From: an uncultured Gammaproteobacteria bacterium
GTDB taxonomy: Bacteria; Pseudomonadota; Gammaproteobacteria; Eutrophobiales; Eutrophobiaceae
Assembly (NCBI GenBank): GCA_958295485.1
Contig: OY282354.1
Span: 1,550,001-1,614,000 of the forward strand
Direction: 5' to 3'
DNA: 64,000 nt
The position numbers and the translations under genes are program-made. Numbering within the stretch: position 1 is the first letter of the stretch; each line of letters opens with the position of its first letter. This document shows, one piece after another, positions 21,112 through 42,201 of the stretch. The notes under the pieces were generated by a model that saw only the letters and a program-made list of their open reading frames with translations, did no database searches and was not told the DNA's origin.

Positions 21112-21291
21112 GATTAATCCGGATGGATATTGAGGATGTTTAGTTATGTGAGATATAATGAGTACATATTACAAAATGAGAAACCAGCGTAATGCTGTTC
21201 CTTATCAATCGAATGCGATTCCCATGCGCTTGTGCTATGACTGAATGAATAATCTTTCAAATCCGCCGCAAAAGAGCGCTTTGGCAACATT
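21112..21291 (+). promoter_or_regulatory. Upstream cassette of giant gene 1 (shared with giant gene 3)
   Basis: About 180 bases starting GATTAATCCGG and ending GAGCGCTTTGGCAACAT are closely matched at 61858-62040 in front of the third giant gene, and in part at about 35830-35900 in front of the second. The aligned -10-like hexamers are TATGAC (21236), TATAAT (61986) and TATAGC (35842). It is probably the promoter region of the family. Confidence 0.65.
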
Positions 21292-21314: not shown

Positions 21315-24300
21315 GTGCGATCCGAAGCTGGCAATAAAAGTCGAAGTGCAGGCGTTGTTTTCGCGGCGCTGCTGGCCGCGGCGCTGCTGTTCGCGGCGTC
21401 TCCGGCGAAAGCGCATGTCCTATTGCCCGATTACGACGTACACTATCATTTCGAGATCAAGTTGTCTTCGGACACGATTGCGGAGAATTCAGGGGACACC
21501 ATTACCGTTACCGCCAACTGCACATCTAATCATTGCCGCCAATTATTCACCGATCCGAATCCGGAGACCAATCAGAGCGCGTATATAGATATCTTCATCG
21601 ACGGCGGAGAACTCCAAGCAGGCGGCGCCGTGCTGAGCGCCAATAAGCGATTGACTTTCACTACCGGAAATACTGTCGCTCTGCCGCGCAGGTCCAGTGG
21701 AACAGTGACGATCAGGGTCACGGACGACGGGCTGGGCAACGGCGACCGGAGAGTGACGATAACGGGTTCGGTTCCCTACCACCCGAGCAAAGGCAGCGAT
21801 TACTGGTATACCACCAGTGACGCAACCCCTGTCATCACCTCCGCCACGCTGACGATACAGGACGACGAGCCTCCGGCGGCGACGCTGGCGCTGGGCGAGA
21901 CCTCGATCAACGAGAGCGGGGCGGGTAATTCGGCCACGATCGAAGCACGGCTGAGCCGAGCGGTGACGACGGCGACGACGATCACGCTGACGGCGCCGGC
22001 GGGGACATCGCTGAGCGGGACGACGCTGACGATCGACGCGGGCGACACCTCCAGCGCGGACGCGGCCACGGCGGCGCGCCGGCAGGTGACGCTCACGGCG
22101 GTGGACAACACGACGGACGCGCCGGACCGGATGGTGACCGTGACGGGGACGTCGAGCCTCCCGGGCGAGCCGCCGCCGCTGATCGCTTCGCTGACGATCG
22201 CCGACGACGACGCTGCGCCGACGGTGACGCTGTCGCTGTCGAGCGCATCGATCTCGGAGAACGGCGGGACGAGCGCGGTGTCGGCGACGCTGAGCCACCC
22301 CTCCAGCGAAGCGACCACGGTGACGGTGCCGGCGGCGTCGGGGCTGTACACGGTGGGTTCGGACGCGACCATCACGATCGCGGCGGGGGACACCACGAAC
22401 AGTTCGGACACGGTCTCCATCACGGCGGTGAACAATACGACGGACGAGCCGCACCGCGCGGTGACGGTGACGGCCTCGGCGCAGAACAGCCAGGGAGTGG
22501 GCGCGGTGTCGGGGGCCGCATTGACGATCACCGACGACGACAATACGCCGACGGTGACGCTGGCGCTGGCGGACACCACGATCGAGGAGTCGAGCGGCAC
22601 GGCGAGCGAGACGATGACCACGGTGTCGGCGACGCTGAGCAATCCCTCGAGCGAGGCGACGACGGTGACCGTGGCGGCGGTGTCGGGAGCGTACGCGGTG
22701 GGCGCGGACGCGACCATCACGATCGCGGCGGGAGAGACTGCGAACAGTTCGGACACGGCGTCCATCACGGCGGTGGACAACGACATCGACGTCGGCGCGA
22801 ACCGCGCGGTGACGGTGACGGCCTCGGCGCAGAACAGCCAGGGAGTGAGCGCGGTGACGGGCGCGGCGCTGACGATCACCGACGACGACGAAGCGGGCCT
22901 GACGCTATCGAAGAATTCGGTGTCGACCACGGAGGCGGCCGGCGCCGGCCGCACGGACACGTTCACGGTGCAGCTGGACACTGAGCCGACGGCGACGGTG
23001 ACGGTCACCATCGGCGTCACCGGCGGCGACACGGACGAGGCGACGGTGAGTCCGGCGACCTTGAAGTTCGCGGCGACGGCGAACAGCGGCAACAACGAGT
23101 TCAAGTGGGACGATCCGCAGACGGTGACGGTGACGGGCGTGGACGAAACCGTGCAGGACAGCGACCGCGCGTACACGATCACGGTAGCGGCGGCGAGCGG
23201 CGATGCGATCTACAACGACAACGCGAAAGTGCCGGACGAGACGCTGTCAGGTTTGAATGTGGACGACGATGCGTCGAGGGTGACGCTGGCGCTGGGCAGT
23301 ACCTCGATCAACGAGAGCGGGGCGGGCAATTCGACCACGATCTCGGCGCGGCTGAGCCGGGCCTCGACGGCCTCGACGGCGATCACGCTGACGGCGCCGG
23401 CGGGGACATCGCTGAGCGGGACAACGCTGACGATCGACGCGGGCGAGACTTCGAGCGCGGACGCGGACACGGCGGGGCGCCGGCAGGTGACGCTGACGGC
23501 GGTGGACAACACGACGGACGCGCCGGACCGGATGGTGTCCGTGACGGGGTCGGCGAGCAACGCCGGGGTCGTGGCGGGCCCGGCGCCCGTTCCGCTGACG
23601 ATCGCCGACGACGACGCTGCGCCGACGGTGACGCTGTCGCTGTCGAGCGCATCGCTCTCGGAGAACGGCGGGACGAGCACGGTGTCGGCGACGCTGAGCA
23701 ATCCCTCGAGCGAAGCGACGACGGTGACGGTGCCGGCGGCGTCGGGGCTGTACACGGTGGGTTCGGACGCGACCATCACGATCGCGGCGGGGGACACCAC
23801 GAACAGTTCGGACACGGTCTCCATCACGGCGGTGAACAACACGACGGACGAGCCGAACCGCGCGGTGACGGTGACGGGCACGGCGCAGAACAGCCAGGGA
23901 GTGGGAATGGTGACGGGCGCGCCGCTGACGATCGCCGACGACGACGCTGCGCCGACGGTGAGGCTGAGGGTGACGGACGCCGCGATCAAGGAATCGAGCG
24001 GCACGGCGAGCGAGACGATGACCACGGTGACGGCGACGCTGAGCAATCCCTCGAGCGAAGCGACGACGGTGACCGTGGCGGCGGTGTCGGGAGCGTACGC
24101 GGTGGGCGCGGACGCGACCATCACGATCGCGGCGGGAGAGACCGCGAACAGTTCGGACACGGCGTCCATCACGGCGGTGGACGATGACATCGACGTCGGC
24201 GCGAGCCGGGCAGTGACGGTGACGGCCTCGGCGCAGAACAGCCAAGGGGCGGGCGTGGTGACGGGCGCGGCGCTGACGATCACCGACGACGACGAAGCGG

Positions 24301-27300
24301 GCCTGACGCTATCGAAGAATTCGGTGTCGACCACGGAAGCGGCCGGCGCCGGCCGCACGGACACGTTCACGGTGCAGCTGGACACTGAGCCGACGGCGAC
24401 GGTGACGGTCACCATCGGCGTCACCGGCGGCGACACGGACGAGGCGGCGGTGAGTCCGGCGACCTTGAAGTTCGCGGCGACGGCGAACAGCGGCAACAAC
24501 GAGTTCAAGTGGGACGATCCGCGGCAGGTGACGGTGACGGGCCAGGATGACAGCGCGTCGGACGGTGACCGCGCGTACACGCTCACGGTGGCGGCGGCGA
24601 GCGGCGATGCGATCTACAACGCCCTGAGCGAGACGGTATCGGGTTCGAATGCAGACGACGATGCGCCGAAAGTGACGCTGGCGCTGGGCAGGACCTCGAT
24701 CAACGAGAGCGGGACGGGCAATTCGACCACGGTCTCGGCGCGACTGAGCCGGGCCTCGACGGCCGCGACGGCGATCACGCTGACGGCGCCGGCGGGGACG
24801 ACGCTGAGCGGGACGCGGCTGACGATCGACGCGGGCGAGACTTCGAGCGCGGACGCGGACACGGCGGGACGCCGGCAGGTGACGCTGACGGCGGTGGACA
24901 ACGACGTCGACGCGGCGGACCGCAGGGTGTCAGTCACGGGGTCGGCGAGCAACGCCGTGGCCGTGACGGACCCGGCGGCCGTGTCGCTGACGATCGCCGA
25001 CGACGACACCGCGGGACTGACGGTGTCGAAGAGCTCGGTGTGGACCAGCGAGCCCAACGTAAGGGATTCGTTCACGGTGCAGCTGGACACTGAGCCGACG
25101 GCGATGGTGACCGTCACCATCGGCGTCACCGCCGGCGACACGGGCGAGGCGACGGTGAGTCCGACGACCCTGAAGTTCGCGGCGGCGGCGAACAGCGGCA
25201 ACAACGAGTTCAAGTGGGACGATCCGCGGCCGGTGACGGTGACGGGCCAGGATGACAGCGCGGCGGACGGCGACCGCTCGTACACAATCACGGTGGCGGC
25301 GGCGAGCGCGGACGCGAACTACAACGCCCTGAGCAAGACGGTGTCGGGTTTGAATGCGGACGACGATGTGCCGAGGGTGACGCTGGCGCTGAGCGAGACC
25401 GAGATTGCCGAAAGCGGTAGGTTCATCAGTTCGACCAGAATTTCGGCGGAACTGGACCGGGAATCGACGGCGCCGACGACGATCACGGTGACGGCGCCGC
25501 CGGGAACGACGCTGAGCGAGACGAGGATGGGCGAGACGCTCGACACGCTGACGATCGACGCGGGCAGGCTCTCGAGCAGGTCTGCGGCCACGGCGGCGCA
25601 CCGGGAGCTGACGCTCAGGGCGGTGGACAACGGCCTCGACGCGCCGGACCGCGTGGTGACGGTGACCGGCACGGCGACCAATAGCGCGGTCGTGTCGGGC
25701 CCGGCGGGGGTGTCACTGACGATCACCGACGACGACGACACCCCGCGCCTGGAGGCGACGCTGACCTCGAACTCCCTGAGAACCTCCGAGGCGGTCGGGC
25801 CGCCGGTCAACATACGGGTGCGCCTGCAGTCGGAGCCGACGGCGACGGTGACGCTGTCGATCCGCAGCAGCGACACGAGCGAGGCGACGGTGACCCCATC
25901 GACCCTGAAATTCGCGGCGGTGGCGGACATCCGCGACTTGGATGATCCGGTGTACGAGTGGAACGTCCCGCAAAGTGTGACGGTGAGAGGAGTGGATGAT
26001 CTGGAGGACGACAACCATCAGCCTTTCGTGATCACGATGACGGCGGCGAGCGCGGACACGAGGTACCATGGTCAAAGTTTGAGAATGTCGGGCGTGAACC
26101 TGGATGACGATGATCCGGAGGTGAAGCTGTCGCTGTCGGACGCTTCGATTTCGGAGAACGGCGGCACGACCGAAGTGTCGGCGGCGCTGACCGAAGTGTC
26201 GCACCAGACGGTGATGATCACGTTCGTCCATGCGAGGGGCGCGTACACGGTGCCGTCGGCGTCGGATGCGAACACGATCACGATCGAGGCGGGGGAGACG
26301 AAAAGCGCGGATCGGGTGACACTGACGGCGGTGGACAACGCGACGGATTCGCCGGATCGTTCGGTGACAGTGAGTGGGATCAGCAGCCCACAGGCAGAGG
26401 TGGTGGAGGCAGAACTGACCTTGGAGGACGACGACGATGCGCCGACGGTGACGCTGGCGGTGGCGGACAACACGATCAAGGAGAACAGCGACACGGCGAG
26501 CGAGACGATGACCACGGTGTCGGCGACGCTGAGCCATGCCTCGAGCGAAGACACGACGATCACGGTGACGCCGGTGTCGGGGGCGTACACGGTGGGTTCG
26601 GACGCGACCATCACGATCGCGGCGGGGGAGACTGAGAACAGTTCGGACACGGTGTCGATCACGGCGGTGAACAACGCCTGGGACGAGCCGGACCGTTCGG
26701 TGACGGTGACGGGGTCGGCGGCCAACAGCCACGAAGCGGGCTCGGTGACGGGGGCCTCGCTGACCATCACCGACGACGACGAGGCGCCCTCGATCACGTT
26801 GACGGTGGATGACAGCAATGTGGGCGAGGGCGACGGGGCCACCACGATCACGGTGACGGCAACGGTGGACGGCACGACCCGGTTCGCCGAGGCCACGACG
26901 GTGACCGTGAGCGTGGCGGGCAGCGGCACGGCGTCGGCGGTGGACTTCGCGGCGGTGTCGGACTTCGACATTGAGATTGAGGCAGGGGCGGCGAGCAACA
27001 CCGGGACGTTCACGCTGACGCCAACGGACGACGTCGTGGACGAGACCAACGAGACGGTGACAGTGAGTGGGGTATCAGGCAGCCTGACGGTGAACTCGGC
27101 CACGATCACGTTGACGGACGACGACGCGACGCCCTCGATCACGTTGACGGTGGATGACAGCAGTGTGGGCGAGGGTGACGGGGCCACCACGATCACGGTA
27201 ACGGCGACGGTGGACGGCACGACCCGGTTCGCCGCGGCCACGACGGTGACCGTGAGTGTGGGGGGTAGTAGCACGGCGACGGCGGTGGACTTCGCCGCGG

Positions 27301-30300
27301 TGACGGACTTCGACATTACGATCGCCGCGGGGGCGGCGAGCCAGACCGGAACCTTCACGCTGACGCCGACGGACGACGTCGTGGACGAGACCAACGAGAC
27401 GGTGACGGTAAGCGGCGCCTCAGGCAGCCTGACGGTGAACTCGGCCACGATCGCGCTGACGGACGACGATGCGGCGCCGACCGCGATCACGCTGACGGTG
27501 AACGACAACAGCGTGGGCGAGGGCGATGGGGCAACGACGATCACGGTGACCGCGACGGTGGACGGCGCGACCCGGTTCGCCGAGGCCACGACCGTTGGGG
27601 TGAGCGTGGGGGGCAGCGGCACGGCGACGGCAGTGGACTTTGCGGCGGTGTCGGCGTTCAACATCGTTATCGGAGCCGGGGCGGCGAGCCAGACCGGGAC
27701 GTTCACGCTGACGCCGACGGACGACACGGCAGACGAGACCAACGAGACTATCACGGTGAGCGGTACCTCAGGCAGCCTGACGGTGAACTCGGCCACGATC
27801 ACGTTGACGGACAACGACGCCGCGCCGACTGCGATCACGCTGACGGTGAATGACAACAGCGTGGGCGAGGGCGACGGGGCGACGACGATCACGGTGACGG
27901 CCACGGTGGACGGCACGACCCGGTTCGCCGCGGCCACGACGGTGACGGTGAGCGTGGCGGGTAGCGGCACGGCGACGGCGGTGGACTTTGCGGCGGTGTC
28001 GGACTTCGACATTGAGATCCCGGCGGGGGCGGCGAGCCAGACCGGGACGTTCACGCTGACGCCGACGGACGATGCGACGGACGAGACCAACGAGACGGTG
28101 ACGGTGAGCGGCGCGTCGGGCAGCCTGACGGTGAATTCGGCCACGATCACGTTGACGGACAACGACGCGGCGCCGACCGCGATCACGCTGACGGTGAACG
28201 ACGACGGCGTAGGCGAGGGCGACGGGGCGACCCTGATCACGGTGACGGCGACGGTAGACGGCACGACCCGGTTCGCCACGGCGACGACGGTGACCGTGAG
28301 CGTGGCGGGTAGCGGCACGGCGACGGCGGTGGACTTCGCCGCGGTGACGGCCTTCGACATTACGATTGCGGCGGACGCCGCGAGCGGTACCGGCAGCTTC
28401 ACGCTGACGCCGACGGACGATACGGCGGACGAGACTGATGAGACCATCACGGTGAGCGGCGCGTCGAGCGGCCTGACGGTGAACCCGGATACGATCAGCC
28501 TGACGGACGACGACGGCGCGCCGACCTCACTCACGCTGACGGTGAACGACAACAGCGTGGCCGAAGGTGACGGGGCGACCCTGATCACGGTGACGGCGAC
28601 GGTGAATGGGACGACGCAGTTCGCTACGGTCACGACAGTGCAGGTGAGCGTGGGGGGTAGCGGGACGGCGACGGCGGTGGATTTCGCGGCGGTGTCGGAC
28701 TTCGACATTACGATTGCGGCGGGGGCGACGAACGGTACCGGGACGTTCACGCTGACGCCGACGGCTGACGTCGTGGACGAGACCAACGAGACGATCACGG
28801 TGAGCGGTACCTCAGGCAGCCTGACGGTGAACTCGGCCACGATCGCGCTGACGGATGACGACGCCGCCCCGACTGCGATCACGCTGACGGTGAACGACAA
28901 CAGCGTGGGCGAGGGCGACGGGGCAACGACGATCACGGTGACGGCCACGGTGGACGGCGCGACCCGGTTCGCCGAGGCCACGACCGTTGGGGTGAGCGTG
29001 ACGGGTAGCGGCACGGCGACGGCGGTGGACTTTGCGGCAGTGTCGGCGTTCAACATCGAGATTGCGGCGGGGGCGGCGAGCGGTACCGGGACGTTCACGC
29101 TGACGCCGACGAACGACGTCACGGACGAGACCAACGAGACGGTGACGGTGAGCGGTACGTCGGGCAGCCTGACGGTGAACTCGGCCACGATCACGTTGAC
29201 GGACAACGACGCCGCCCCGACCGCGATCACCTTGACAGTGAATGACAACCGCGTGGGCGAGGCTGACGGGGCGACCACGATCAGGGTGACGGCGACGGTG
29301 GACGGCACGACCCGGTTCGCCGAGGCCACGACCGTTGGGGTGAGCGTGGCGGGCAGCGGCACGGCGACGGCGGTGGACTTCGCGGCGGTGTCGGACTTCG
29401 ACATTACGATCGGGGCCGGGGCGGCGAGTCAGACCGGAACGTTCACGCTGACGCCGACGAACGACACGGTGGACGAGACTGATGAGACGGTGACGGTGAG
29501 CGGCGCGTCGGGCAGCCTGACGGTGAACTCGGCCACGATCACGTTGACGGACAACGACGATGCCCCGACCTCGATCACCCTGACGGTGGACGACGACGGT
29601 GTAGGTGAGGGCGACGGGGCGACCCTGATCACGGTGACGGCGACAGTGGACGGCACGACCCGGTTCGGCGCGGCCACGACGGTGACCGTGAGCGTGGCGG
29701 GTAGTGGCACGGCGTCGGCGGTGGACTTTGCGGCGGTGTCGGACTTCGACATTACGATTGCGGCGGACGCCGCCAGCGGTACCGGGACGTTCACGCTGAC
29801 GCCGACGGACGATACGACGGACGAGACTGATGAGACCATCACGGTGAGCGGCGCGTCAGGCAGCCTGACGGTGAACCCGGACACGATCAGCCTGACGGAC
29901 GACGACGGCGCGCCGACCTCACTCACGCTGACAGTGAACGATAACAACGTGGGCGAGGCCGACGGGGCGACCACGATCACGGTGACGGCGACGGTGAACG
30001 GGGCGACGCAGTTCGCCGCGGCCACGACAGTGCAGGTGAGCGTGGCGGGCAGCGGCACGGCGACGGCGGTGGACTTCGCAGCGGTGTCGGACTTCGACAT
30101 TACGATTGCGGCGGGGGCGACGAACGGTACCGGGACCTTCACGCTGACGCCGACGGCTGACGTCGTGGACGAGACCAACGAGACGATCACGGTGAGCGGT
30201 ACCTCAGGCAGCCTGACGGTGAACTCGGCCACGATCGCGCTGACGGATGACGACGCCGCCCCGACTGCGATCACCTTGACGGTCAACGACAACAGCGTGG

Positions 30301-33300
30301 GCGAGGGCGACGGGGCCACCACGATCACGGTGACGGCGACGGTAGACGGCACGACCCGGTTCGCCGAGGCCACGACCGTTGGGGTGAGCGTGACGGGCAG
30401 CGGCACGGCGACGGCGGTGGACTTCGCAACGGTGGCGAACTTCAACATCGAGATTGCGGCGGCGGCGGCGAGCGGTACCGGGACGTTTACGCTGACGCCG
30501 ACGAACGACGTCACGGACGAGACCAACGAGACTATCACGGTGAGCGGCGCGTCGGGCAGCCTGACAGTGAGCTCGGCCACGATCACGTTGACGGACGACG
30601 ATGCGGCGCCGACGTCGCTCAGCTTGACGGTGAACGACGACAGGGTGAACGAGGGCGGCGGGGCGACCACGATCACGGTGACGGCGACGGTGGACGGCAC
30701 GACCCGGTTCGCCGTTGCCACGACGGTGACCGTGAGCGTGGCGGGGACCGGCGCGCCGACGGCAGTGGACTTCGCGGCAGTGTCGAACTTCGACATTACG
30801 ATTGCGGCGGCGGCGGCGAGCGGCGCCGGGACCTTCACGCTGACGCCGACGGACGATGCGGTGGACGATACCGACGAGACCATCACGGTGCGCGGCGCGT
30901 CGGGCAGCCTGACGGTAAGCTCGGCCACGATCACGTTGGCGGATGATGAAGGGCCGGTGACGCTGTCGATCAACTCGTCGAGCGTGACGGAAGGGAACAG
31001 CGGCTCGAAGGACCTGACGTTCACGGTAACCATGAGTCCGGTGAGTATCGAGCTGGTGGCGGTGGACTACGCGGACGCCGGGAGCGGGACAGCGACCTCG
31101 GGGGCGGACTATGTGGCGATCACCGGCGGCACGCTGATCTTCCCTGCGGGAACCGCGAGTCAGGAGGTCACGGTGTCGGTGACGGGGGACACCGCCGTCG
31201 AGGCGAACGAGACGGTGGTGTTATCGCTGAGCAACCCCGCCAACGCGATGATTGGAACCGGCACGGGGACAGGGACGATCACGAACGACGATGTCGGCGA
31301 GCCTCCCCCGATCGACGACGCCCCGTCGCTGTCGATCGACTCGCCGAGCGTGTCGGAGGGGGACGACGATTCGGTGAGCCTGATGTTCACGGTGACCCTG
31401 AATCCGGCCAGTAGCGTGCCGGTGACGGTAGACTACGTGGTCACCGGCACGGCGAGAGCGGGGACGGACTTTGCGGCGCTCACCGGCGGCACGCTGACCT
31501 TCCCGGCGGGGGCCACGAGTCGGACAATCACGGTGTCGGTGATGGGCGATGCCCTGGATGAAGATGACGAGACCATCGTGGTGACCCTGAGCAACGTCAG
31601 GAATGCGGCCATCGACACGGCGACGGGGACAGGCACCATCACCGACGACGACACGGGCCCGTCGCTGATGATCGACTCACCAAGCGTGGCGGAGGGTGAC
31701 AGCGGTTCGACAAACCTGACGTTCACCGTGACCCTGAGCGAGGCCCTCACCGAGCCGGTGACGGTGGACTATGCGGACGCCGGGACTGGCACGGCAACAT
31801 CGGGGACCGACTACGTGGCGATCCCCGGCGGCACGCTGACCTTCCCGGCGGGAACCACCAGCCGGTCGATCGTGGTAGCGGTGACAGGCGACGTCCTGGC
31901 CGAGCCGGACGAGACCGTTGCGGTGACCCTGAGCAACGCCGCCAACGTAGCCATCGGTCCGGCGACGGGAACCGGCACCATCATCGACGATGACGACGCC
32001 GGCGACGCGCCGACGCTGTCGATCGACTCGCCGCGCGTGACCGAGGGCGCCGCCGGTTCGACGACCCTGACGTTCACCGTGAGCTTGAGCGCGGCGAGTA
32101 CCGAGCAAGTGACAGTGGCCTACGCGGACGCCGGGACCGGCACGGCGACCCCGGGGACGGACTACGCGGCGCTCACCGGCGGCACGCTGACCTTCCCGGC
32201 AGGCACCACGAGCCAGACCTTGAACGTGTCGGTGACGGGCGATGCCCTGGACGAGGCGGACGAGACCGTAGTGGTAACCCTGAGCAATGCGACGAACGCG
32301 ACCATCGGCACGGCGACGGGTACCGGCGTCATCACCGATGACGACGCCCCGCCGTCGCTGTCCATCGACTCGCCGAGCGTAACGGAAGGCGACCCCAGTT
32401 CGACGACCCTGACGGAGGGCGCCGCCGGTTCGACGACCCTGACGGAGGACGCCGCCGGTTCGACGACCCTGACGGAGGACGCCGCCGGTTCGGTAAGCCT
32501 GACCTGGACGGTGACCCTGGACGCGGCCAGCGGGCGGACGGTGACAGTAGACTATGCGGACGCCGGGACCGGCACGGCGACCCCGGGGACCGACTACACG
32601 GCCCTCGGCGCGGGGACGCTGACCTTCCCCGCCGGAGTCACCAGCCGGGCGGTAACGGTGGCAGTGACGGGGGACACTATCACCGAGCCGGACGAGACCG
32701 TAGTGGTCACCCTGAGCAACGCGGCGAACGCGACCATCGGCACGGCGACGGGAACCGGCACAATCATCGACGACGACGTCGACCTGACGCCGAGCTTCGA
32801 TTCTATGACCATCCCGGCCCAGTCCTGGACCCGGAACTGGCCGATCCCGGCATTGACACTACCGGCGGCCACGGGCGGCGACGGCGCGCTGACCTACACG
32901 CTGACGCCGGCGCTACCCAGCGGACTGAGCTTCGATGCGGCCACGCGGGAATTATCAGGCACGCCGACGACGGCGCTGGCGGCGACCGAATACAGCCTGA
33001 CGGCCACAGACGCGGACGGGGATGCAGTGACGCTGAGTTTCACGATCGAAGTGACCGGCCCGATTGTAATATCGATTACGGACGGCGAGGCGGTGGAGGG
33101 CGAGCCCGTCGAGTTCGGGATTACATTGTCCAGGCCCGTGCCGGAAGCCGGGACGCTGCTGGTGGTTTATCGGATAACTGACGGCACGGCCCTGGCGCAT
33201 ACCGACTACACGCCGCCTGCGGGTCAGCGAGGAGAGTTCACGATCGCGGCGGGACAGACTGCGGCGGCGATCGTCGTTCGGACGACGGCCGACGACCTGG

Positions 33301-34982
33301 TGGAGGACGAGGAGACATTCACGGTGACGCTGGTCAACGCCCGTCATGCGGAGTTGGGCGATGCCGAGGCCACGGGGAGGATTATCGATGACGACCTGGC
33401 GTCCTTGCGCGGCGAGGCGTTGCAATGGTCTCTGGCGGCGTTCGGGCGGACGGTGGCGACGGATGCGGTGGACGTCATCGGCCAACGCTTCCGGCCCGGC
33501 GGCCCGCCGCGCCCGCCACGCGCCGGGTTGCCGGGCACGTCGCTACGGGACGGCATCGGCTCGGCCGGCGCGGGTACCGGCACAACCGGTGCGGTTAGCG
33601 GCACGGCCGGCGCGGGTTGGACCACCGGCGCGTGGCGGAACTTTTACCTGGACAGTCCCGCCGGTTCGAGCTCGCCCGGCGGTTTTTCCGGCCCGGAGCG
33701 TTCCCCGCAGGGCGAATTCCTGTCCCAGGTCGCCTTTGAGACGCGCCTTGACGCGCCGGACGAGGCTGGCGCTGATGGCGGGGATGACGCTGATGGTGAG
33801 GATGACGCCGATGGTGAGAATGGCGCGAAGGGTCGGGAGTGGACAGTATGGGGCCGGGGTTCGCGGAGCCAGTTCAGTGGCCAGTCCGGGGCGGGGATAA
33901 CATTGGACGGGGAGGTGAACACGGGCTACCTGGGCGCGGACGTGCGGCTGGCTGAGCACGACCTGTTGCTGGGCGTGGCGTTATCGCACAGCGTCGGGGA
34001 ACTGGACTATCAAGCGGCGGCGGCAGGGTTGAACGAGGGGCAGATAGACTTGGACCTGAGCAGCGTCCTGCCCTATGCTCACTGGGCATTGAACGAGCGG
34101 GTATCCCTGTGGGGGTTGCTGGGCATTGGTTGGGGGGAGGCGACTTTGACGGACGAGTTCGGGCGGGTGACGACGGACACGGAGATGCGGATGGCGGCGT
34201 TAGGCAGTCGCGGGGAGTTGGCGACGTGGCGGGGCCTGGACCTGGCGTTGAAGGGCGACGCCTTTATAGTGAACATGAAAGGGTCGGAATGGGAGCAGAG
34301 CGATGCGGTGGCGATGCCGGAAGTGGATGCGGATGCGCATCGCGTGCGCCTGATGCTGGAGGGCCGGCGCGCCTGGCAGGCAGGGCCGCAACAGCAGTTG
34401 GAGTTAAGCCTGGAGTTCGGCGGTCGTTGGGACGGTGGCGATGCGGACACGGGCGTGGGCGCGGAGTTGGGCGGGGGGTTGGCATACCGCCATGCGGCTT
34501 GGGGTCTGGGGATTGAGACGCGGGGCCGGTATTTGCTGGGGCATACGGAGCGGGCGTTCGAGGAGTGGGGCGCGAGCGTGTCGGTGGCGTTGGATCCGGG
34601 CGTGGAGGGGACTGGCCCGTCGTTGACCTTGTCGCCGGCCTGGGGCGAGGCATCGAGCGGGGTGGAGAACCTGTGGCGGGAAGAGCGGTTGTTAGGCGCG
34701 AGTCTGGGCGGTCAACCGTCCCCGGCTGAACGCGGCGGCCTGCGGCCAAGCCGGTTACAGATGGAGTTGGGCTATGGCTTTGAGACTCGCGGCCCGGGCT
34801 TGCTGAAGCTGTACAGCGCCATGGACGAGGGCAGCCCGGGGAGCAGGAACTGGCGTCTGGGCGGCGAGGTAACGGGCGGGTGGTTCACCTGGGGCCTGGA
34901 ACTGGACCGGCGGGAGAACTGGAGCGGGTCACCCGAGCACGGCGTCTTCCTGCAGTTCGGCAACGGAAGAAGTGAAAGGTAA
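21315..34982 (+). CDS. Giant Calx-beta repeat protein with autotransporter beta-barrel (4555 aa)
   Basis: The start is GTG at 21315, followed by a signal peptide with a long hydrophobic core and an AKA cleavage site at about residue 32. After a unique region of about 120 residues come beta-rich, acidic repeats ending in I-x-DDD: a four-module super-repeat of about 1.4 kb (about residues 190-1720), twelve units of about 115 residues starting LTVNDNSVGEG (about 1823-3210), then classic Calx-beta units beginning LSIDSPSVTEG. A putative Ig (He_PIG) domain with PSGLSFDAATRELSGTP (about 3830-3915), one more Calx-beta unit, a Gly/Ala linker and a C-terminal domain of about 400 residues starting EWTVWGRGSRSQF complete it; the last part resembles autotransporter barrels. 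A large calcium-binding type V secreted adhesin is inferred. GC is far above the flanking core genes, and long antisense frames are artefacts of this. Confidence 0.88.
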   Translation: MRSEAGNKSRSAGVVFAALLAAALLFAASPAKAHVLLPDYDVHYHFEIKLSSDTIAENSGDTITVTANCTSNHCRQLFTDPNPETNQSAYIDIFIDGGELQAGGAVLSANKRLTFTTGNTVALPRRSSGTVTIRVTDDGLGNGDRRVTITGSVPYHPSKGSDYWYTTSDATPVITSATLTIQDDEPPAATLALGETSINESGAGNSATIEARLSRAVTTATTITLTAPAGTSLSGTTLTIDAGDTSSADAATAARRQVTLTAVDNTTDAPDRMVTVTGTSSLPGEPPPLIASLTIADDDAAPTVTLSLSSASISENGGTSAVSATLSHPSSEATTVTVPAASGLYTVGSDATITIAAGDTTNSSDTVSITAVNNTTDEPHRAVTVTASAQNSQGVGAVSGAALTITDDDNTPTVTLALADTTIEESSGTASETMTTVSATLSNPSSEATTVTVAAVSGAYAVGADATITIAAGETANSSDTASITAVDNDIDVGANRAVTVTASAQNSQGVSAVTGAALTITDDDEAGLTLSKNSVSTTEAAGAGRTDTFTVQLDTEPTATVTVTIGVTGGDTDEATVSPATLKFAATANSGNNEFKWDDPQTVTVTGVDETVQDSDRAYTITVAAASGDAIYNDNAKVPDETLSGLNVDDDASRVTLALGSTSINESGAGNSTTISARLSRASTASTAITLTAPAGTSLSGTTLTIDAGETSSADADTAGRRQVTLTAVDNTTDAPDRMVSVTGSASNAGVVAGPAPVPLTIADDDAAPTVTLSLSSASLSENGGTSTVSATLSNPSSEATTVTVPAASGLYTVGSDATITIAAGDTTNSSDTVSITAVNNTTDEPNRAVTVTGTAQNSQGVGMVTGAPLTIADDDAAPTVRLRVTDAAIKESSGTASETMTTVTATLSNPSSEATTVTVAAVSGAYAVGADATITIAAGETANSSDTASITAVDDDIDVGASRAVTVTASAQNSQGAGVVTGAALTITDDDEAGLTLSKNSVSTTEAAGAGRTDTFTVQLDTEPTATVTVTIGVTGGDTDEAAVSPATLKFAATANSGNNEFKWDDPRQVTVTGQDDSASDGDRAYTLTVAAASGDAIYNALSETVSGSNADDDAPKVTLALGRTSINESGTGNSTTVSARLSRASTAATAITLTAPAGTTLSGTRLTIDAGETSSADADTAGRRQVTLTAVDNDVDAADRRVSVTGSASNAVAVTDPAAVSLTIADDDTAGLTVSKSSVWTSEPNVRDSFTVQLDTEPTAMVTVTIGVTAGDTGEATVSPTTLKFAAAANSGNNEFKWDDPRPVTVTGQDDSAADGDRSYTITVAAASADANYNALSKTVSGLNADDDVPRVTLALSETEIAESGRFISSTRISAELDRESTAPTTITVTAPPGTTLSETRMGETLDTLTIDAGRLSSRSAATAAHRELTLRAVDNGLDAPDRVVTVTGTATNSAVVSGPAGVSLTITDDDDTPRLEATLTSNSLRTSEAVGPPVNIRVRLQSEPTATVTLSIRSSDTSEATVTPSTLKFAAVADIRDLDDPVYEWNVPQSVTVRGVDDLEDDNHQPFVITMTAASADTRYHGQSLRMSGVNLDDDDPEVKLSLSDASISENGGTTEVSAALTEVSHQTVMITFVHARGAYTVPSASDANTITIEAGETKSADRVTLTAVDNATDSPDRSVTVSGISSPQAEVVEAELTLEDDDDAPTVTLAVADNTIKENSDTASETMTTVSATLSHASSEDTTITVTPVSGAYTVGSDATITIAAGETENSSDTVSITAVNNAWDEPDRSVTVTGSAANSHEAGSVTGASLTITDDDEAPSITLTVDDSNVGEGDGATTITVTATVDGTTRFAEATTVTVSVAGSGTASAVDFAAVSDFDIEIEAGAASNTGTFTLTPTDDVVDETNETVTVSGVSGSLTVNSATITLTDDDATPSITLTVDDSSVGEGDGATTITVTATVDGTTRFAAATTVTVSVGGSSTATAVDFAAVTDFDITIAAGAASQTGTFTLTPTDDVVDETNETVTVSGASGSLTVNSATIALTDDDAAPTAITLTVNDNSVGEGDGATTITVTATVDGATRFAEATTVGVSVGGSGTATAVDFAAVSAFNIVIGAGAASQTGTFTLTPTDDTADETNETITVSGTSGSLTVNSATITLTDNDAAPTAITLTVNDNSVGEGDGATTITVTATVDGTTRFAAATTVTVSVAGSGTATAVDFAAVSDFDIEIPAGAASQTGTFTLTPTDDATDETNETVTVSGASGSLTVNSATITLTDNDAAPTAITLTVNDDGVGEGDGATLITVTATVDGTTRFATATTVTVSVAGSGTATAVDFAAVTAFDITIAADAASGTGSFTLTPTDDTADETDETITVSGASSGLTVNPDTISLTDDDGAPTSLTLTVNDNSVAEGDGATLITVTATVNGTTQFATVTTVQVSVGGSGTATAVDFAAVSDFDITIAAGATNGTGTFTLTPTADVVDETNETITVSGTSGSLTVNSATIALTDDDAAPTAITLTVNDNSVGEGDGATTITVTATVDGATRFAEATTVGVSVTGSGTATAVDFAAVSAFNIEIAAGAASGTGTFTLTPTNDVTDETNETVTVSGTSGSLTVNSATITLTDNDAAPTAITLTVNDNRVGEADGATTIRVTATVDGTTRFAEATTVGVSVAGSGTATAVDFAAVSDFDITIGAGAASQTGTFTLTPTNDTVDETDETVTVSGASGSLTVNSATITLTDNDDAPTSITLTVDDDGVGEGDGATLITVTATVDGTTRFGAATTVTVSVAGSGTASAVDFAAVSDFDITIAADAASGTGTFTLTPTDDTTDETDETITVSGASGSLTVNPDTISLTDDDGAPTSLTLTVNDNNVGEADGATTITVTATVNGATQFAAATTVQVSVAGSGTATAVDFAAVSDFDITIAAGATNGTGTFTLTPTADVVDETNETITVSGTSGSLTVNSATIALTDDDAAPTAITLTVNDNSVGEGDGATTITVTATVDGTTRFAEATTVGVSVTGSGTATAVDFATVANFNIEIAAAAASGTGTFTLTPTNDVTDETNETITVSGASGSLTVSSATITLTDDDAAPTSLSLTVNDDRVNEGGGATTITVTATVDGTTRFAVATTVTVSVAGTGAPTAVDFAAVSNFDITIAAAAASGAGTFTLTPTDDAVDDTDETITVRGASGSLTVSSATITLADDEGPVTLSINSSSVTEGNSGSKDLTFTVTMSPVSIELVAVDYADAGSGTATSGADYVAITGGTLIFPAGTASQEVTVSVTGDTAVEANETVVLSLSNPANAMIGTGTGTGTITNDDVGEPPPIDDAPSLSIDSPSVSEGDDDSVSLMFTVTLNPASSVPVTVDYVVTGTARAGTDFAALTGGTLTFPAGATSRTITVSVMGDALDEDDETIVVTLSNVRNAAIDTATGTGTITDDDTGPSLMIDSPSVAEGDSGSTNLTFTVTLSEALTEPVTVDYADAGTGTATSGTDYVAIPGGTLTFPAGTTSRSIVVAVTGDVLAEPDETVAVTLSNAANVAIGPATGTGTIIDDDDAGDAPTLSIDSPRVTEGAAGSTTLTFTVSLSAASTEQVTVAYADAGTGTATPGTDYAALTGGTLTFPAGTTSQTLNVSVTGDALDEADETVVVTLSNATNATIGTATGTGVITDDDAPPSLSIDSPSVTEGDPSSTTLTEGAAGSTTLTEDAAGSTTLTEDAAGSVSLTWTVTLDAASGRTVTVDYADAGTGTATPGTDYTALGAGTLTFPAGVTSRAVTVAVTGDTITEPDETVVVTLSNAANATIGTATGTGTIIDDDVDLTPSFDSMTIPAQSWTRNWPIPALTLPAATGGDGALTYTLTPALPSGLSFDAATRELSGTPTTALAATEYSLTATDADGDAVTLSFTIEVTGPIVISITDGEAVEGEPVEFGITLSRPVPEAGTLLVVYRITDGTALAHTDYTPPAGQRGEFTIAAGQTAAAIVVRTTADDLVEDEETFTVTLVNARHAELGDAEATGRIIDDDLASLRGEALQWSLAAFGRTVATDAVDVIGQRFRPGGPPRPPRAGLPGTSLRDGIGSAGAGTGTTGAVSGTAGAGWTTGAWRNFYLDSPAGSSSPGGFSGPERSPQGEFLSQVAFETRLDAPDEAGADGGDDADGEDDADGENGAKGREWTVWGRGSRSQFSGQSGAGITLDGEVNTGYLGADVRLAEHDLLLGVALSHSVGELDYQAAAAGLNEGQIDLDLSSVLPYAHWALNERVSLWGLLGIGWGEATLTDEFGRVTTDTEMRMAALGSRGELATWRGLDLALKGDAFIVNMKGSEWEQSDAVAMPEVDADAHRVRLMLEGRRAWQAGPQQQLELSLEFGGRWDGGDADTGVGAELGGGLAYRHAAWGLGIETRGRYLLGHTERAFEEWGASVSVALDPGVEGTGPSLTLSPAWGEASSGVENLWREERLLGASLGGQPSPAERGGLRPSRLQMELGYGFETRGPGLLKLYSAMDEGSPGSRNWRLGGEVTGGWFTWGLELDRRENWSGSPEHGVFLQFGNGRSER
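21880..26780 (+). repeat. Super-repeat of about 1.4 kb in giant gene 1
   Basis: The phrase GACGCTGGCGCTGGGC starts at 21881, 23282 and 24674, giving periods of 1401 and 1392 bases. Two full copies carry the same order of four module types (INESG, SENGG, ESSGTAS and LSKNSVSTTEA); the third is shortened and diverged. This implies duplication of four-module blocks. Confidence 0.75.
26785..30950 (+). repeat. Twelve tandem Calx-beta-like units of about 345 bp
   Basis: Twelve units coding LTV-(N/D)-D, then VGEGDGAT and VDFAAVSDFDI, are in tandem. Units 5-7 and 9-11 match each other better than their neighbours, with an offset of 1392 bases (28199 to 29591), showing block duplication of four units. 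Confidence 0.8.
32399..32488 (+). repeat. 30-bp minisatellite inside a Calx-beta unit, three copies
   Basis: Copies at 32399, 32429 and 32459 code STTLTE-(G/D)-AAG. They interrupt a Calx-beta unit between its first strand and SVSLTWTVTL; the corresponding unit of giant gene 2 lacks the insertion. Confidence 0.85.
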
Positions 34983-35991: not shown

Positions 35992-36129
35992 ATGCCGCTG
36001 CTTTTTTCTTTGCCTCTCTCTTTTCTTCGCTTCAGCTTCGGGGGTGTGAAGCGGTGGATTGCCCCCCCCCCCCCCCCCGATACCGAGCGTGTCGGAGGGC
36101 GACAGCGGCACGACGACCCTGACGTTGGC
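35992..36129 (+). other. Leader ORF with 17-C tract in frame with giant gene 2
   Basis: An ATG at 35992 opens a frame that runs through VKRWIA, a run of 17 C (36062-36078) and into the main ORF. VKRWIA mirrors the true signal peptide start MKRWIAG. In the frame reached by losing one C, the post-tract sequence reads IPSVSEGDSGTTTLTLA and stops at a TGA overlapping the main ATG at 36130. It is a duplicated, truncated 5' end of the same gene family. Confidence 0.65.
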
Positions 36130-39100
36130 ATGAAGCGCTGGATCGCCGGCTGGCGCCCCTGCCTTGTCCCCTTGCTTCTCCTCGCCTTGGTCGCCGTCGC
36201 GCCCGAGGCCGCCGCGCAGACCCCGACGCTGTCGATTGACTCACCGAGCGTGACGGAGGGGAACAGCGGCTCGACGAACCTGACGTTCACGGTGACCCTG
36301 AGCGCGGTCAGCAGCCAGCAGGTGACGGTGGACTACGCGGACGCCACGACCGGCACGGCCACGTCGGGAACGGACTACACGGCCATCACCGGCGGCACAT
36401 TGACCTTCACGGCGGGGACGACCAGCCTGACCCAGACCTTCAACGTATCGGTGACGGGCGATACGACCGACGAAGTGAACGAGACCGTCGTGGTGACCCT
36501 GAGCAGCGCGACGAACGCGACGATCGCGACGGGTACCGGCACGGGGACGATCACGGACGACGACGGGCCGGCGGTGTCGATCAACTCGCCGAGCGTGACC
36601 GAGGGGGACAGCGGCTCGACGAACCTGACCTTCACGGCGACGTTGAGCGCGGCGAGCGCCCAGCAGGTGACGGTGGCCTACGCCGACGCCACGACCGGCA
36701 CGGCCACTTCGGGGACCGACTACACGGCGATCACCGCCGGCACGCTGACCTTCACGGCGGGGACAACCAGCCAGACCTTCAACGTGGCGGTGACCGGCGA
36801 CACGACCGATGAGGCGAACGAGACGGTGATCGTGACCCTGAGCAGCCCGACGAACGCGACGATCGCGACGGGTACCGGCACGGGGACGATCACGAACGAC
36901 GACGGGCCGACGCTGTCGATCGACTCGCCGAGCGTGACGGAGGGTGACAGCGGCTCGACGAACCTGACCTTCACGGTGACGTTGAGCGTGGCGAGCAGCC
37001 AGCAGGTGACGGTAGACTACGCGGACGCCACGACCGGCACAGCCACGTCGGGGACGGACTACACGGCGATCACGGACGGGACGTTGACCTTCACAGCGGG
37101 GACGACCAGCCAGACCTTCAACGTATCGGTGACGGGCGATACGACCGACGAGGTGGACGAGACCGTCGTGGTGACCCTGAGCAGCGCGACGAACGCGACG
37201 ATCTCGACGGCGACCGGCACGGGGACGATCACGGACGACGATGTGACGCCGGGAGCCAGATGGACGCCGGGCGGCCTCTGGACTCATGATGTGACCACGA
37301 CGAGCCTCATAGGCAAGCTGACGCTTCAGCAGTCAGTCACAATCACCGGAGGAAGCAGGCAATGGGCTAACGCCGCGATTGACGCTTGTCCCTGGACGAG
37401 GGTGACTCCGCCGCTCCCGTCTACCGCGTGTCAGTTACTCAAGGACTATCGTGCGAATGGTTTTCCCAATTTCCAAGATTTGAGGTTGACGAATTTCATT
37501 CCGACCCAAGCCATGATCGACAACGGCGGGGTCGTCATCAGACTTAGGTGGTTAAACTACAACAGCCCTGCCGGGAACAACGTTGGCATGGTCGAGTGGG
37601 TTCCTCTTCTAACGCCTCCGAGTGCGACGCTGGTCCTCACGCCGCCGTCGATTTCGGAGAACGGCGGGGTTGCGACGGTGAGCGCGACGCTCGACCGGCA
37701 GTGGTCCGACGCGGTGACGATCACAGTGTCGGCGGCGGCGGGGACGGGCGCGGACGCTTCCGACTTCACCCTGAGTTCGGCGAACACGCTGACGATCGCG
37801 GCGGGCGAGACGACGAGCACAGGGACGGTGACGCTCACCGCGGTGGACAACGCGATTGATGCGGTGGACAAGGCGGTGACCGTTTCGGGAACCGCCTCCG
37901 ACAGCGTGACCAACGCGCCGCCCGACGTAACGCTGACGATCACGGACGACGACTTGCCGACGCTGTCGATTGACTCGCCGAGCGTGACGGAAGGGAACAG
38001 CGGTTCGAAGGACCTGACGTTCACCGTGAGCTTGAGCGGGGCCCTCACCGAGTCGGTGACAGTGGACTACGCGGACTCCAGGAGCGGGACGGCGACTTCG
38101 GGGACGGACTATGCGGCGATCACCGGCGGCACGCTGATCTTCCCTGCGGGAACCGCGAGCCAGGAGGTCACGGTGTCGGTGAGGGGGGACACCACCGTCG
38201 AGGCGAACGAGACGGTGGTGTTATCGTTGAGCAACCCTGCCAACGCGATGATCGGAACCGGCACGGGGACAGGGACGATCAGGAACGACGATGTCGGCGA
38301 GCCCCCTCCGATAGACGACGCCCCATCGCTATCGATCGACTCGCCGAGTGTGGCGGAGGGGGACGATGATTCGGTGAGCCTGACGTTCACGGTGACCCTG
38401 AGTCCGGTTAGTAGCGTCCCGGTGACGGTGGACTACGTCGTCACCGGCACGGCGAGGTCGGGGACGGACTTTGCGGCGCTCACTGGCGGCACGCTGACCT
38501 TCCCGGCGGGGACCATGAGCCGGACAATCACGGTGTCGGTGATGGGCGATGTCCTGGATGAAGATGACGAGACCATCGTGGTGACCCTGATCAATGTCAG
38601 GAATGCGGCCATCGACACAGCGACGGGGACCGGCACCATCACCGACGACGACACGGGGCCGTCGTTGGCGATCGACTCGCCGAGCGTGGCGGAGGGTGAC
38701 GCCGGTTCGACGGACCTGACGTTCACCGTGACCCTGAGCGAGGCCCTCACCGAGCCGGTGACGGTGGACTATGCGGACGCCGGGACTGGCACGGCAACAT
38801 CGGGGACCGACTACGTGGCTATCACCGGCGGCACGCTGACCTTCCCGGCGGGAACCACCAGCCGGGCGATCGTGGTAGCGGTGACGGGCGACGTCCTGGA
38901 TGAGCCGGACGAGACCGTTGCGGTGACCCTGAGCAACGCCGCCAACGCAGCCATCGGTCCGGCGACGGGCACCGGCACCATCATCGACGATGACGACGCC
39001 GGCGACGCGCCGACGCTGTCGATTGACTCGCCGAGCGTGACGGAAGGTGACGCCGGTTCGACGAACCTGACGTTCACCGTGAGCTTGAGCGCGGCGAGTA

Positions 39101-42100
39101 CCGAGCAAGTGACAGTGGCCTACGCGGACGCCGGGACGGGCACGGCGACCCCGGGGACCGACTACGCGGCCCTCATCGGCGGCACGCTGACCTTCCCGGC
39201 GGGAACCACGAGTCAGACCTTCAACGTAGCGGTGACGGGCGACGTCCTGGACGAGCCGGACGAGACCGTAGTGGTGACCCTGAGCAACGCGACGAATGCG
39301 ACCATCAGCACGGCGACGGGAACCGGCGCCATCGCTGATGACGACGAGCCGCCGGCGCTGTCCATCGACTCGCCGAGCGTGACGGAGGGCGACGCCGGTT
39401 CGGTAAACCTGACCTGGACGGTGACCTTGGACGCGGCGAGCGGCCGGGTGGTGACGGTGGCCTGGGCGGACACCGGGACCGGCACGGCGACCTCGGGGAC
39501 CGACTACGTAGCGATTACCGGCGGCGCGCTGACCTTCCCGGCGGGAACGACGACCCAGACCTTCAACGTAGCGGTGACGGGGGACACGACCACCGAACCG
39601 GACGAGACCGTGGTAGTGGCCCTGAGCAATGCCAGGAATGCCACCATCGGCACGGCGACGGGAGGCGGCACAATCATCGACGACGACCTGACGCCGAGCT
39701 TTGGTTCGGCGACGGTCCCGGCTCAGTCCTGGACCCGGAACTGGCCGATCCCGGTATTGACGCTGCCGGCGGCCATGGGCGGCGACGGCGCGCTGACCTA
39801 TGCGCTGACGCCGGAACTACCCAGCGGACTGAGCTTCGATGCGGCCGCGCGGGAATTATCGGGTACGCCGACGACGATGCTGGCGGCGACCGAATACAGC
39901 CTGATGGCCACGGACGAGGATGGGGATACGGTAGCGCTGAGTTTCACTATCGAGGTAACCGGCCCGATCACTATATCGATTGCGGACGGTCAAGCGGTAG
40001 AGGGCGAGCCCGTCGAGTTCGGGATTACATTGTCCAGGCCTGTGCCGGAAGCCGGGACGCTACTGGTAGTTTATCGGATAACTGACGGCACGGCCCTGGC
40101 GCAGTCCGACTATGCGCCGCCCGCAGGTCAGCAAGGGGAGTTCACGATCGCGACGGGGCAGGACGCGGCGACGATCGTCATTCGGACGACGGACGATGAC
40201 CTGGTGGAGGACGAGGAGACGTTCACGGTAACGCTGGTTGGCACGAGTCATGCGGAGTTGGGCGATGCCGAAGCGACGGGCCGGATCATCGATAACGACT
40301 TGGCGTCCCTGCGCGGCGAGGCGTTGCAATGGTCTCTGGCAGCGTTTGGGCGGACGGTGGCAACGGAAGCGGTGGACGCTATCGGCCAACGCTTCCGGCC
40401 CGGTGGCACGCCGCGCGCGCCACGCGCCGGGTTGCCGGGCACGTCGCTACGAGACGGCATCGGCGCGGCCAGCGCGAGATGGACAACGCACGCCGGCGGG
40501 ACGGCTGCGCTGTCGCAGGCCGGCAGCGGCACGGTTGGTATGGGCCGGCCGACCGGTGCGGTTGGCGGCCCGGCTGGCGCCGCTTGGACGACCGGTGCGG
40601 CCAACGACGCGGCTGACGCGGACTGGACGACTGGTGCGGTTAGCGGCATGGCTGACGCGGACTGGACGACTGGTGCGGTTAGCGGCATGGCTGACGCGGA
40701 CTGGACGACTGGTGCGAGCAACGACGCGGCTGACGCGGACTGGACGACCGGTGCGGGCAACGGCGCGGTTAGCGGCGTGGCTGACGCGGACTGGGCCAAC
40801 GGTGCGGTTAGTGGCGTGGCTGGCGCGGACTGGGCCAACGGCGCGGTTAGCGGCGTGGCCGGCGCGGGCTGGACCACCGGCGCATGGCGGAACTTTTCCT
40901 TGGGCGGTCCCGGCGGCGCGGCATTGCCCGGCGGCTTTTCCGGCCCGGAGCGTTCCCCGCAGGGCGAATTCCTGTCCCAGGTCGCCTTTGAGACGCGCCT
41001 TGACGCGACGGATGAGGATGGCGTCGATGGCGGGTCGGGTCAGGAGTGGACAGTGTGGGGTCGGGGTTCGCGGAGCCAGTTCAGTGGCCAGTCCGGGGCG
41101 CGGATAACATTGGACGGGGAAGTGAACACGGGTTACCTGGGCGCGGACGTGCGGCTGGCTGAGCATGACCTGCTGCTGGGCGTGGCGTTATCACACAGCG
41201 TCGGGGAACTGGACTATCAAGCGGCGGCGGCCGGGTTGAACGAGGGGCAGATAGACTTGGACCTGAGCAGCGTACTGCCCTATGCTCACTGGCAGTTGAA
41301 CGAGCGGGTATCCCTGTGGGGGTTGCTGGGCATCGGCTGGGGGGAGGCGACTTTGACGGACGAGTTCGGGCGGGTAACGACGGACACGGAGATGCGGATG
41401 GCGGCGTTGGGCAGTCGCGGGGAGTTGGCGACGTGGCGGGGTCTGGACCTGGCGTTGAAGGGCGACGCCTTTATAGTGAACATGGAAGGGTCGGAATGGG
41501 AGCAGAGCGATGCAGTGGCGATGCCGGAAGTGGATGCGGATGCGCATCGCGTACGCCTGATGCTGGAAGGCCGGCGCGCCTGGCAGGCAGGGCCGCAACA
41601 ACAGTTGGAGTTAAGCCTGGAGTTCGGCGGTCGCTGGGACGGTGGCGATGCGGACACGGGCGTGGGCGCGGAGTTAGGCGGAGGGTTGGCATACCGCCAT
41701 GCGGCCTGGGGTTTGGGGATTGAGACGCGGGGCCGGTACCTGCTGGGGCATACAGAACGGGCGTTCGAGGAATGGGGCGCGAGCGTGTCGGTAGCGTTGG
41801 ATCCGGGCGTGGAGGGGATTGGCCCGTCGTTGACCTTGTCGCCGACCTGGGGCGAGGCCTCGAGCGGGGTGGAGAACCTGTGGCGGGAAGAGCGGTTGTT
41901 AGGCGCCAGCCTGGGCAGTCAACCGTCCCCGGATGAGCGCGGCGGCCTGCGCCCGAACCGGTTACGGATGGAGTTGGGCTATGGCTTTGAGACCCGCGCG
42001 CAGCGGTTGCTGAAGCTGTACAGCGCGCTGGACGAGGCTGGCCCGGGGAGCAGGAACTGGCGTCTGGGCGGCCTGGTGACGGGCAGGTGGTTCACCTGGG

Positions 42101-42201
42101 GCCTGGAACTGGACCGCCGGGAGATTTGGGACGCGTCGCCCGAGCACGGCATCTTCCTGAGGTTCGGCAACGGATTGACGAACACAAGAAGTTTGAAGTA
42201 A
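36130..42201 (+). CDS. Giant Calx-beta repeat protein with autotransporter beta-barrel (2023 aa)
   Basis: The ATG at 36130 starts a textbook signal peptide (MKRWIAGWRPC, hydrophobic core, cleavage after PEAAA). The mature protein has three Calx-beta units starting LSIDSPSVTEG (about residues 35-372), a unique domain of about 120 residues with two cysteines (about 373-495), a SENGG-type unit, five further Calx-beta units, a He_PIG-type domain, one more Calx-beta unit, a linker with a 13-residue tandem repeat and a barrel domain of about 400 residues starting EWTVWGRG. From the He_PIG domain to the end it is nearly identical to giant protein 1. The barrel's last beta strand (HGIFLRFGNG) is followed by a short tail. 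A type V secreted surface adhesin is inferred. A longer frame starts at 35992. Confidence 0.87.
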   Translation: MKRWIAGWRPCLVPLLLLALVAVAPEAAAQTPTLSIDSPSVTEGNSGSTNLTFTVTLSAVSSQQVTVDYADATTGTATSGTDYTAITGGTLTFTAGTTSLTQTFNVSVTGDTTDEVNETVVVTLSSATNATIATGTGTGTITDDDGPAVSINSPSVTEGDSGSTNLTFTATLSAASAQQVTVAYADATTGTATSGTDYTAITAGTLTFTAGTTSQTFNVAVTGDTTDEANETVIVTLSSPTNATIATGTGTGTITNDDGPTLSIDSPSVTEGDSGSTNLTFTVTLSVASSQQVTVDYADATTGTATSGTDYTAITDGTLTFTAGTTSQTFNVSVTGDTTDEVDETVVVTLSSATNATISTATGTGTITDDDVTPGARWTPGGLWTHDVTTTSLIGKLTLQQSVTITGGSRQWANAAIDACPWTRVTPPLPSTACQLLKDYRANGFPNFQDLRLTNFIPTQAMIDNGGVVIRLRWLNYNSPAGNNVGMVEWVPLLTPPSATLVLTPPSISENGGVATVSATLDRQWSDAVTITVSAAAGTGADASDFTLSSANTLTIAAGETTSTGTVTLTAVDNAIDAVDKAVTVSGTASDSVTNAPPDVTLTITDDDLPTLSIDSPSVTEGNSGSKDLTFTVSLSGALTESVTVDYADSRSGTATSGTDYAAITGGTLIFPAGTASQEVTVSVRGDTTVEANETVVLSLSNPANAMIGTGTGTGTIRNDDVGEPPPIDDAPSLSIDSPSVAEGDDDSVSLTFTVTLSPVSSVPVTVDYVVTGTARSGTDFAALTGGTLTFPAGTMSRTITVSVMGDVLDEDDETIVVTLINVRNAAIDTATGTGTITDDDTGPSLAIDSPSVAEGDAGSTDLTFTVTLSEALTEPVTVDYADAGTGTATSGTDYVAITGGTLTFPAGTTSRAIVVAVTGDVLDEPDETVAVTLSNAANAAIGPATGTGTIIDDDDAGDAPTLSIDSPSVTEGDAGSTNLTFTVSLSAASTEQVTVAYADAGTGTATPGTDYAALIGGTLTFPAGTTSQTFNVAVTGDVLDEPDETVVVTLSNATNATISTATGTGAIADDDEPPALSIDSPSVTEGDAGSVNLTWTVTLDAASGRVVTVAWADTGTGTATSGTDYVAITGGALTFPAGTTTQTFNVAVTGDTTTEPDETVVVALSNARNATIGTATGGGTIIDDDLTPSFGSATVPAQSWTRNWPIPVLTLPAAMGGDGALTYALTPELPSGLSFDAAARELSGTPTTMLAATEYSLMATDEDGDTVALSFTIEVTGPITISIADGQAVEGEPVEFGITLSRPVPEAGTLLVVYRITDGTALAQSDYAPPAGQQGEFTIATGQDAATIVIRTTDDDLVEDEETFTVTLVGTSHAELGDAEATGRIIDNDLASLRGEALQWSLAAFGRTVATEAVDAIGQRFRPGGTPRAPRAGLPGTSLRDGIGAASARWTTHAGGTAALSQAGSGTVGMGRPTGAVGGPAGAAWTTGAANDAADADWTTGAVSGMADADWTTGAVSGMADADWTTGASNDAADADWTTGAGNGAVSGVADADWANGAVSGVAGADWANGAVSGVAGAGWTTGAWRNFSLGGPGGAALPGGFSGPERSPQGEFLSQVAFETRLDATDEDGVDGGSGQEWTVWGRGSRSQFSGQSGARITLDGEVNTGYLGADVRLAEHDLLLGVALSHSVGELDYQAAAAGLNEGQIDLDLSSVLPYAHWQLNERVSLWGLLGIGWGEATLTDEFGRVTTDTEMRMAALGSRGELATWRGLDLALKGDAFIVNMEGSEWEQSDAVAMPEVDADAHRVRLMLEGRRAWQAGPQQQLELSLEFGGRWDGGDADTGVGAELGGGLAYRHAAWGLGIETRGRYLLGHTERAFEEWGASVSVALDPGVEGIGPSLTLSPTWGEASSGVENLWREERLLGASLGSQPSPDERGGLRPNRLRMELGYGFETRAQRLLKLYSALDEAGPGSRNWRLGGLVTGRWFTWGLELDRREIWDASPEHGIFLRFGNGLTNTRSLK
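40590..40890 (+). repeat. 39-bp linker minisatellite in giant gene 2
   Basis: Tandem units of about 39 bases code variants of ADADWTTGAVSGM (about seven copies, some shortened). The homologous linker in giant gene 1 (about 33560-33640) has only one comparable WTTGAW unit, so linker length varies between paralogues. Confidence 0.8.

Follow-up and report, generated by a model that had tools for sequence, protein, structure and literature searches.

A probable slippage-prone poly-C tract in a leader preceding a giant gene for a Calx-beta, autotransporter-like protein of an uncultured gammaproteobacterium

The pure run of 17 C at positions 36062-36078 (plus strand) of the window, the 64-kb stretch of DNA that was analyzed here at its full length, is best read as a slippage-prone contingency tract in the transcribed leader of a predicted giant Calx-beta autotransporter-like surface protein, with a leader output in three states; judged from the sequence, we hold this reading with moderate confidence. 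That the leader tract varies in length by slippage is well supported by comparison of paralogous copies and related genomes; that it acts as a switch is probable, which would make it a new form of homopolymer phase variation, in an unusual host and an unusual gene family. Among known systems, it would work most like the poly-C phase variation of NalP and the leader-peptide phase variation of pil1.

A contingency locus is expected to carry a long, pure repeat beyond chance, and the C17 tract is such a repeat. A run scan of the whole window found only two C/G homopolymers longer than 8 nt, both exact runs of 17 C (the second at 62210-62226, plus strand); a first-order model of the window puts the expected number of runs at least this long at about 2e-5 for the whole 64 kb. 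For runs of at least 12, the first-order expectation is about 0.9 per 3.74 Mb, against 36 present in the genome (3.74 Mb, six contigs). The homopolymer census covered 676 kb of DNA, together with pattern counts; within these 676 kb, A/T runs reach 10, plus one T14, and only C/G runs are expanded. Since mutS (10741-13248, minus strand, intact) and mutL are both present, the tracts do not reflect a general repair defect, and a general mutator was ruled out.

The leader ORF up to the tract (35992-36061, plus strand) starts at an ATG at 35992 (MPLLFSLPLSFLRFSFGGVKRWIA) and contains an in-frame GTG at 36046, from which the frame reads V-K-R-W-I-A, continues through five prolines, and passes without a frame change into MKRWIAGWRPCL at 36130, where the main ORF starts. 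With one C fewer, the frame reads IPSVSEGDSGTTTLTLA and then ends at a TGA that overlaps the main ATG (ATGA, 36130-36133, plus strand); with one C more, the leader stops at a TGA at 36120-36122 (plus strand), 7 nt before the main ATG. A change in length therefore alters the reading frame, as expected of a contingency locus, and the resulting states are three, not two: fused, ATGA and early stop. In all three, ribosomes translating the leader of the 36 kb copy would end up no more than about 10 nt away from the main ATG. An earlier note on this DNA had described the 17-C tract, an upstream ATG reading through VKRWIA and the tract into the main ORF, the ATGA created by the loss of one C, and a duplicated 5' end; the tract is exact in sequence, both frames hold as described, and the duplication is real, with the upstream GTGAAGCGGTGGATTGCC matching ATGAAGCGCTGGATCGCC at the main start. 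The recurrence that it had reported at 62210-62226 stands with respect to C17 and layout, but tract and ATG are 86 nt apart in the 62 kb copy and 51 nt apart in the 36 kb copy; moreover, the recurrence is no independent case, since the two copies are paralogous and share their layout by common descent.

In this second copy, the leader ORF (62136-62209, plus strand; ATG 62136, in-frame GTG 62190) precedes a main ORF that begins at 62313 (62313-64000, plus strand) and runs past the end of the window, with a whole open frame of 15,554 codons. A candidate -10 element, TATAAT (61986-61991, plus strand), precedes the tract by about 220 nt; it was recognized only in the alignment of paralogues, since the consensus scan did not find it. 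The hexamers TATAGC, TATGAT and TATAAT occupy the same place in most paralogues of this genome, and, with a common TATAAT-like element well upstream, the tract is probably transcribed. The stretch upstream of gene 1 (gene at 21315-34982, upstream stretch at 21160-21290) resembles the corresponding region of the 62 kb copy, but has no tract.

Among the paralogues of this genome, the changes between leader ATG and tract fall on the three codon positions as 11/3/6, a distribution shaped like that of the main-ORF signal peptide (16/5/10), which hints at coding in the leader before the tract. Between tract and main ATG, the changes by codon position in the ATGA frame are 17/16/11, without periodicity; therefore, no constraint at the protein level is visible on either reading, coupled or fused. 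This spacer (36079-36129, plus strand) is the relic of a Calx-beta start (IPSVSEGDSGTTTLTLA followed by a stop in the ATGA frame), without codon-level constraint. The ATGA overlap itself arises automatically from the Met-Lys start, because the second codon of the main ORF is Lys (AAG/AAA). At C17, in the current sequence, the leader is fused, and its stop does not overlap the main start as it would in a leader coupled to its gene. No Shine-Dalgarno sequence was found at the main ATG, but most genes here likewise lack one, so that independent initiation at 36130 may also take place.

The 5' element of the window recurs at about ten sites in its own genome, with tracts of C14, C15, C17 (three times), C20, C22 (twice), C26 and C28, all of them at the 5' ends of one giant gene family and with C on the coding strand; most copies have retained a long uninterrupted tract in this position, despite flank divergence of about 20%. 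At their current lengths, and with the caveat that the assembled consensus length of C17-C31 runs may err by at least 1 and makes frame calls for individual copies unsafe, the copies at 1586k, 1612k, 1873k and 3545k are fused, as is a KRW leader at 2866k in OY282519.1, whereas those at 1659k, 3523k and 17k, plus the KRW leaders of several relatives, are in the third frame; the coupled ATGA frame occurs only in OY282379.1, with C5, and in no long-tract copy among the assemblies. In the 2511k copy, C28 lies between the n-region and the h-region of its sole signal peptide, currently in frame and without a second start; by its layout, this copy is a plain ON/OFF design. In the 2580k copy (G000:C1:2579738-2580107), the second start is now ATA, and the 5' end, which has C26, continues into a gene-1-like body. 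In another copy, the leader has a G18 (G000:C1:737475-737492) where the other copies have a short run of G4-G6, and thus one leader can contain two expandable tracts. Two paralogous neighbors at 3176k and 3178k, which by eye encode membrane proteins of 570 and 576 aa, carry C24 right after ATGACGAGCACAG, within five codons of the ATG and in frame in both (G000:C1:3176795-3176818 and 3178779-3178802). Small contigs are rich in poly-C as well (C2:28121-28217, C4:4379), and one stretch consists of tandem units of about 42 nt, each with C12-C14; they may come from another replicon or organism.

Tracts of at least 12 C number up to 15 in other genomes of the same genus (36 in the genome studied here), whereas almost every remaining genome of the family has 0 or 1. 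A protein search led to five loci in the chromosomes of three MAGs (uncultured Pseudomonadales bacterium), OY282519.1, OY282379.1 and OY282455.1, with 43, 14 and 43 tracts of at least 10 C, respectively. The homologous site upstream of MKRW holds C22, C21 and C22 in OY282519.1, C5 in OY282379.1, and C31, C22 and C8 in OY282455.1. With one genome per species in the collections, paralogues and relatives are the best stand-in for strain variation; the upstream and the downstream flank are each at least 80% identical in 14 tract pairs (paralogues and relatives together), of which 9 differ in length, and pairs with conserved flanks include C31/C22, C17/C14 and C21/C5. Three copies in another gene family of OY282455.1 have C13, C17 and C19 within identical 50-nt flanks. 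Length variation between near-identical copies, a further property of contingency loci, is thus found in paralogues and relatives. The 5' element gave no useful match outside its own species when searched in 95 relatives, and no other alleles of it were found in viral contigs. Some relatives also have short RiPP-precursor-like peptide genes (with KKVWSKPRILRIEDGTL) in which poly-C follows within a few codons of the ATG; of ten such genes, the current tract leaves six in frame and four out of frame, and the downstream frame is intact in all. A family-model search of these peptides yielded no match; a family 8 glycosyltransferase gene adjoins one of the genes.

In OY282455.1, the KRW leader is interrupted (GTG ACC CGG TGA), and the tracts C31 and C22 are nevertheless retained. 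This bears on the phase switch that the earlier note had proposed, a toggle between a fused N-terminal extension and a translationally coupled leader peptide: the length-variable tract at its core is well supported, but the specific toggle is not, given that the ATGA is automatic, the spacer lacks codon periodicity, the states are three, the leader is broken in OY282455.1, and no long-tract copy is in the coupled frame. The same broken leader and the unconstrained spacer would also fit a neutral homopolymer, in a lineage that expands C runs anywhere, so that the leader tract has no effect and translation starts from 36130 only. Many tracts of the genome are in fact intergenic or on the antisense strand, and, with paralogues collapsed, tracts are not significantly enriched just after ATG (15 of 48 clusters, vs. 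12 of 48 on the other strand); without such enrichment, many tracts of the clade may be neutral. For the tract studied here, however, neutrality seems rather unlikely: long pure tracts have persisted at one site while their flanks diverged, and in the C28 copy and the short peptide genes the tract lies inside the coding frame.

An alternative in which the tract acts through RNA or transcription, by leader-ribosome-dependent attenuation or by regulator spacing instead of fused or restarted translation, has a precedent in Streptococcus gallolyticus pil1 (PMC3894217), and the tract kept in OY282455.1 behind an interrupted KRW leader is compatible with it. Attenuation of the pil1 type would place a terminator hairpin between leader and gene, but no intrinsic terminator was found from the tract to the main ATG, and the leader RNA folds no better than its shuffles (z -0.11). 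The candidate -10 lies too far upstream for an effect on promoter spacing, and consensus scans found no promoter; we consider the alternative as a whole improbable. A conserved 5' hairpin (GGCGTTT/AAACGCC) was also considered and rejected, with one compensatory change in one copy and the 5' arm lost in another. Finally, the tract could be a recombination joint, where poly-G strand structure or homopolymer homology shuffles the 5' ends of giant genes. Deletions in the 1586k and 1659k copies that end exactly where the tract begins or ends, the replaced sequence upstream of the C8 tract (locus L187), and the composite 2580k copy would agree with such a role; yet a systematic flank test found no pair with homology only downstream of the tract, and pairs with homology only upstream are explained by deletions or tandem repeats, which leaves this explanation very improbable.

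The product of the main ORF (gene 2, 36130-42201, plus strand) is a predicted Calx-beta repeat, autotransporter-like giant: MKRWIAGWRPCLVPLLLLALVAVAPEAAAQ, by eye a typical Sec signal peptide, is followed by nine Calx-beta repeats and a C-terminal domain (40942-42198, plus strand) related to the autotransporter beta-domain. This domain has no direct PF03797 match of its own; the relationship comes from the family alignment, in which 7 of 13 members match PF03797 (best E 1.7e-14). The structure model of the C-terminal domain is poor (pLDDT 30), the alignment being too shallow. Open frames of 15,554 (window 62313 onward), 21,139 (own genome, near 737-800 kb) and 20,170 codons (G096, near 3.71-3.76 Mb) contain many Calx-beta-type repeats and are among the largest predicted bacterial genes.

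If the tract is a contingency tract as proposed, it would have arisen in the 5' end of one ancestral gene and spread with the gene family, and replication slippage in living cells would add or remove C. Ribosomes would use the leader start; at C17 they would read into the protein, so that extra N-terminal residues precede the signal peptide, at C16 they would stop at ATGA and could restart, and at C18 they would stop 7 nt upstream of the main ATG. The likely output would be that one of about ten adhesins is modulated in a graded way or at its N-terminus, with a presumed effect on how much of it is made or exported. In the sister copy, where C28 interrupts the signal peptide and a second start is lacking, the gene would be switched plainly ON or OFF.

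At the lic loci of Haemophilus influenzae, several starts are used and output is graded. These loci are similar in being contingency loci whose simple repeats differ widely in copy number from strain to strain, but their repeats are tetranucleotides and their products LPS enzymes (PMC2651432). NalP/MspA of Neisseria meningitidis shares a poly-C tract in an autotransporter coding sequence whose length switches the frame; there, 6-15 C lie inside a single ORF under strict ON/OFF control, with NalP ON at 7, 10 or 13 C (PMC3723659), whereas the roughly ten giant paralogues described here have 14-28 C in a leader, and behind it a second start that comes with a separate signal peptide. In pil1, a repeat in a leader ORF likewise shifts the leader stop relative to the downstream adhesin gene, but this repeat consists of GCAGA pentamers combined with a transcription terminator (PMC3894217), as opposed to a homopolymer with no terminator found. 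Large adhesins of marine bacteria also carry Calx-beta repeats in very large surface proteins. To our knowledge, no phase-variable tract is known for them, and a search of the open literature on Calx-beta proteins and phase variation, and on symbionts, gave nothing relevant.

At the level of the genus, we suggest as a speculative and on balance doubtful extension that very long poly-C leaders with three states (fused, restart, stop) could independently switch some ten giant autotransporter-like adhesins, whose genes reach 15,000-21,000 codons, as well as the RiPP-like peptide precursors of relatives, giving each cell a random surface and peptide repertoire. Homopolymer phase variation is known mainly from host-adapted pathogens; if the leader tract is indeed such a switch, this kind of variation would also occur in uncultured Pseudomonadales, whose genes include some of the largest predicted in bacteria, and would account for the ability of a cell with about ten giant adhesin genes to express few of them at once.
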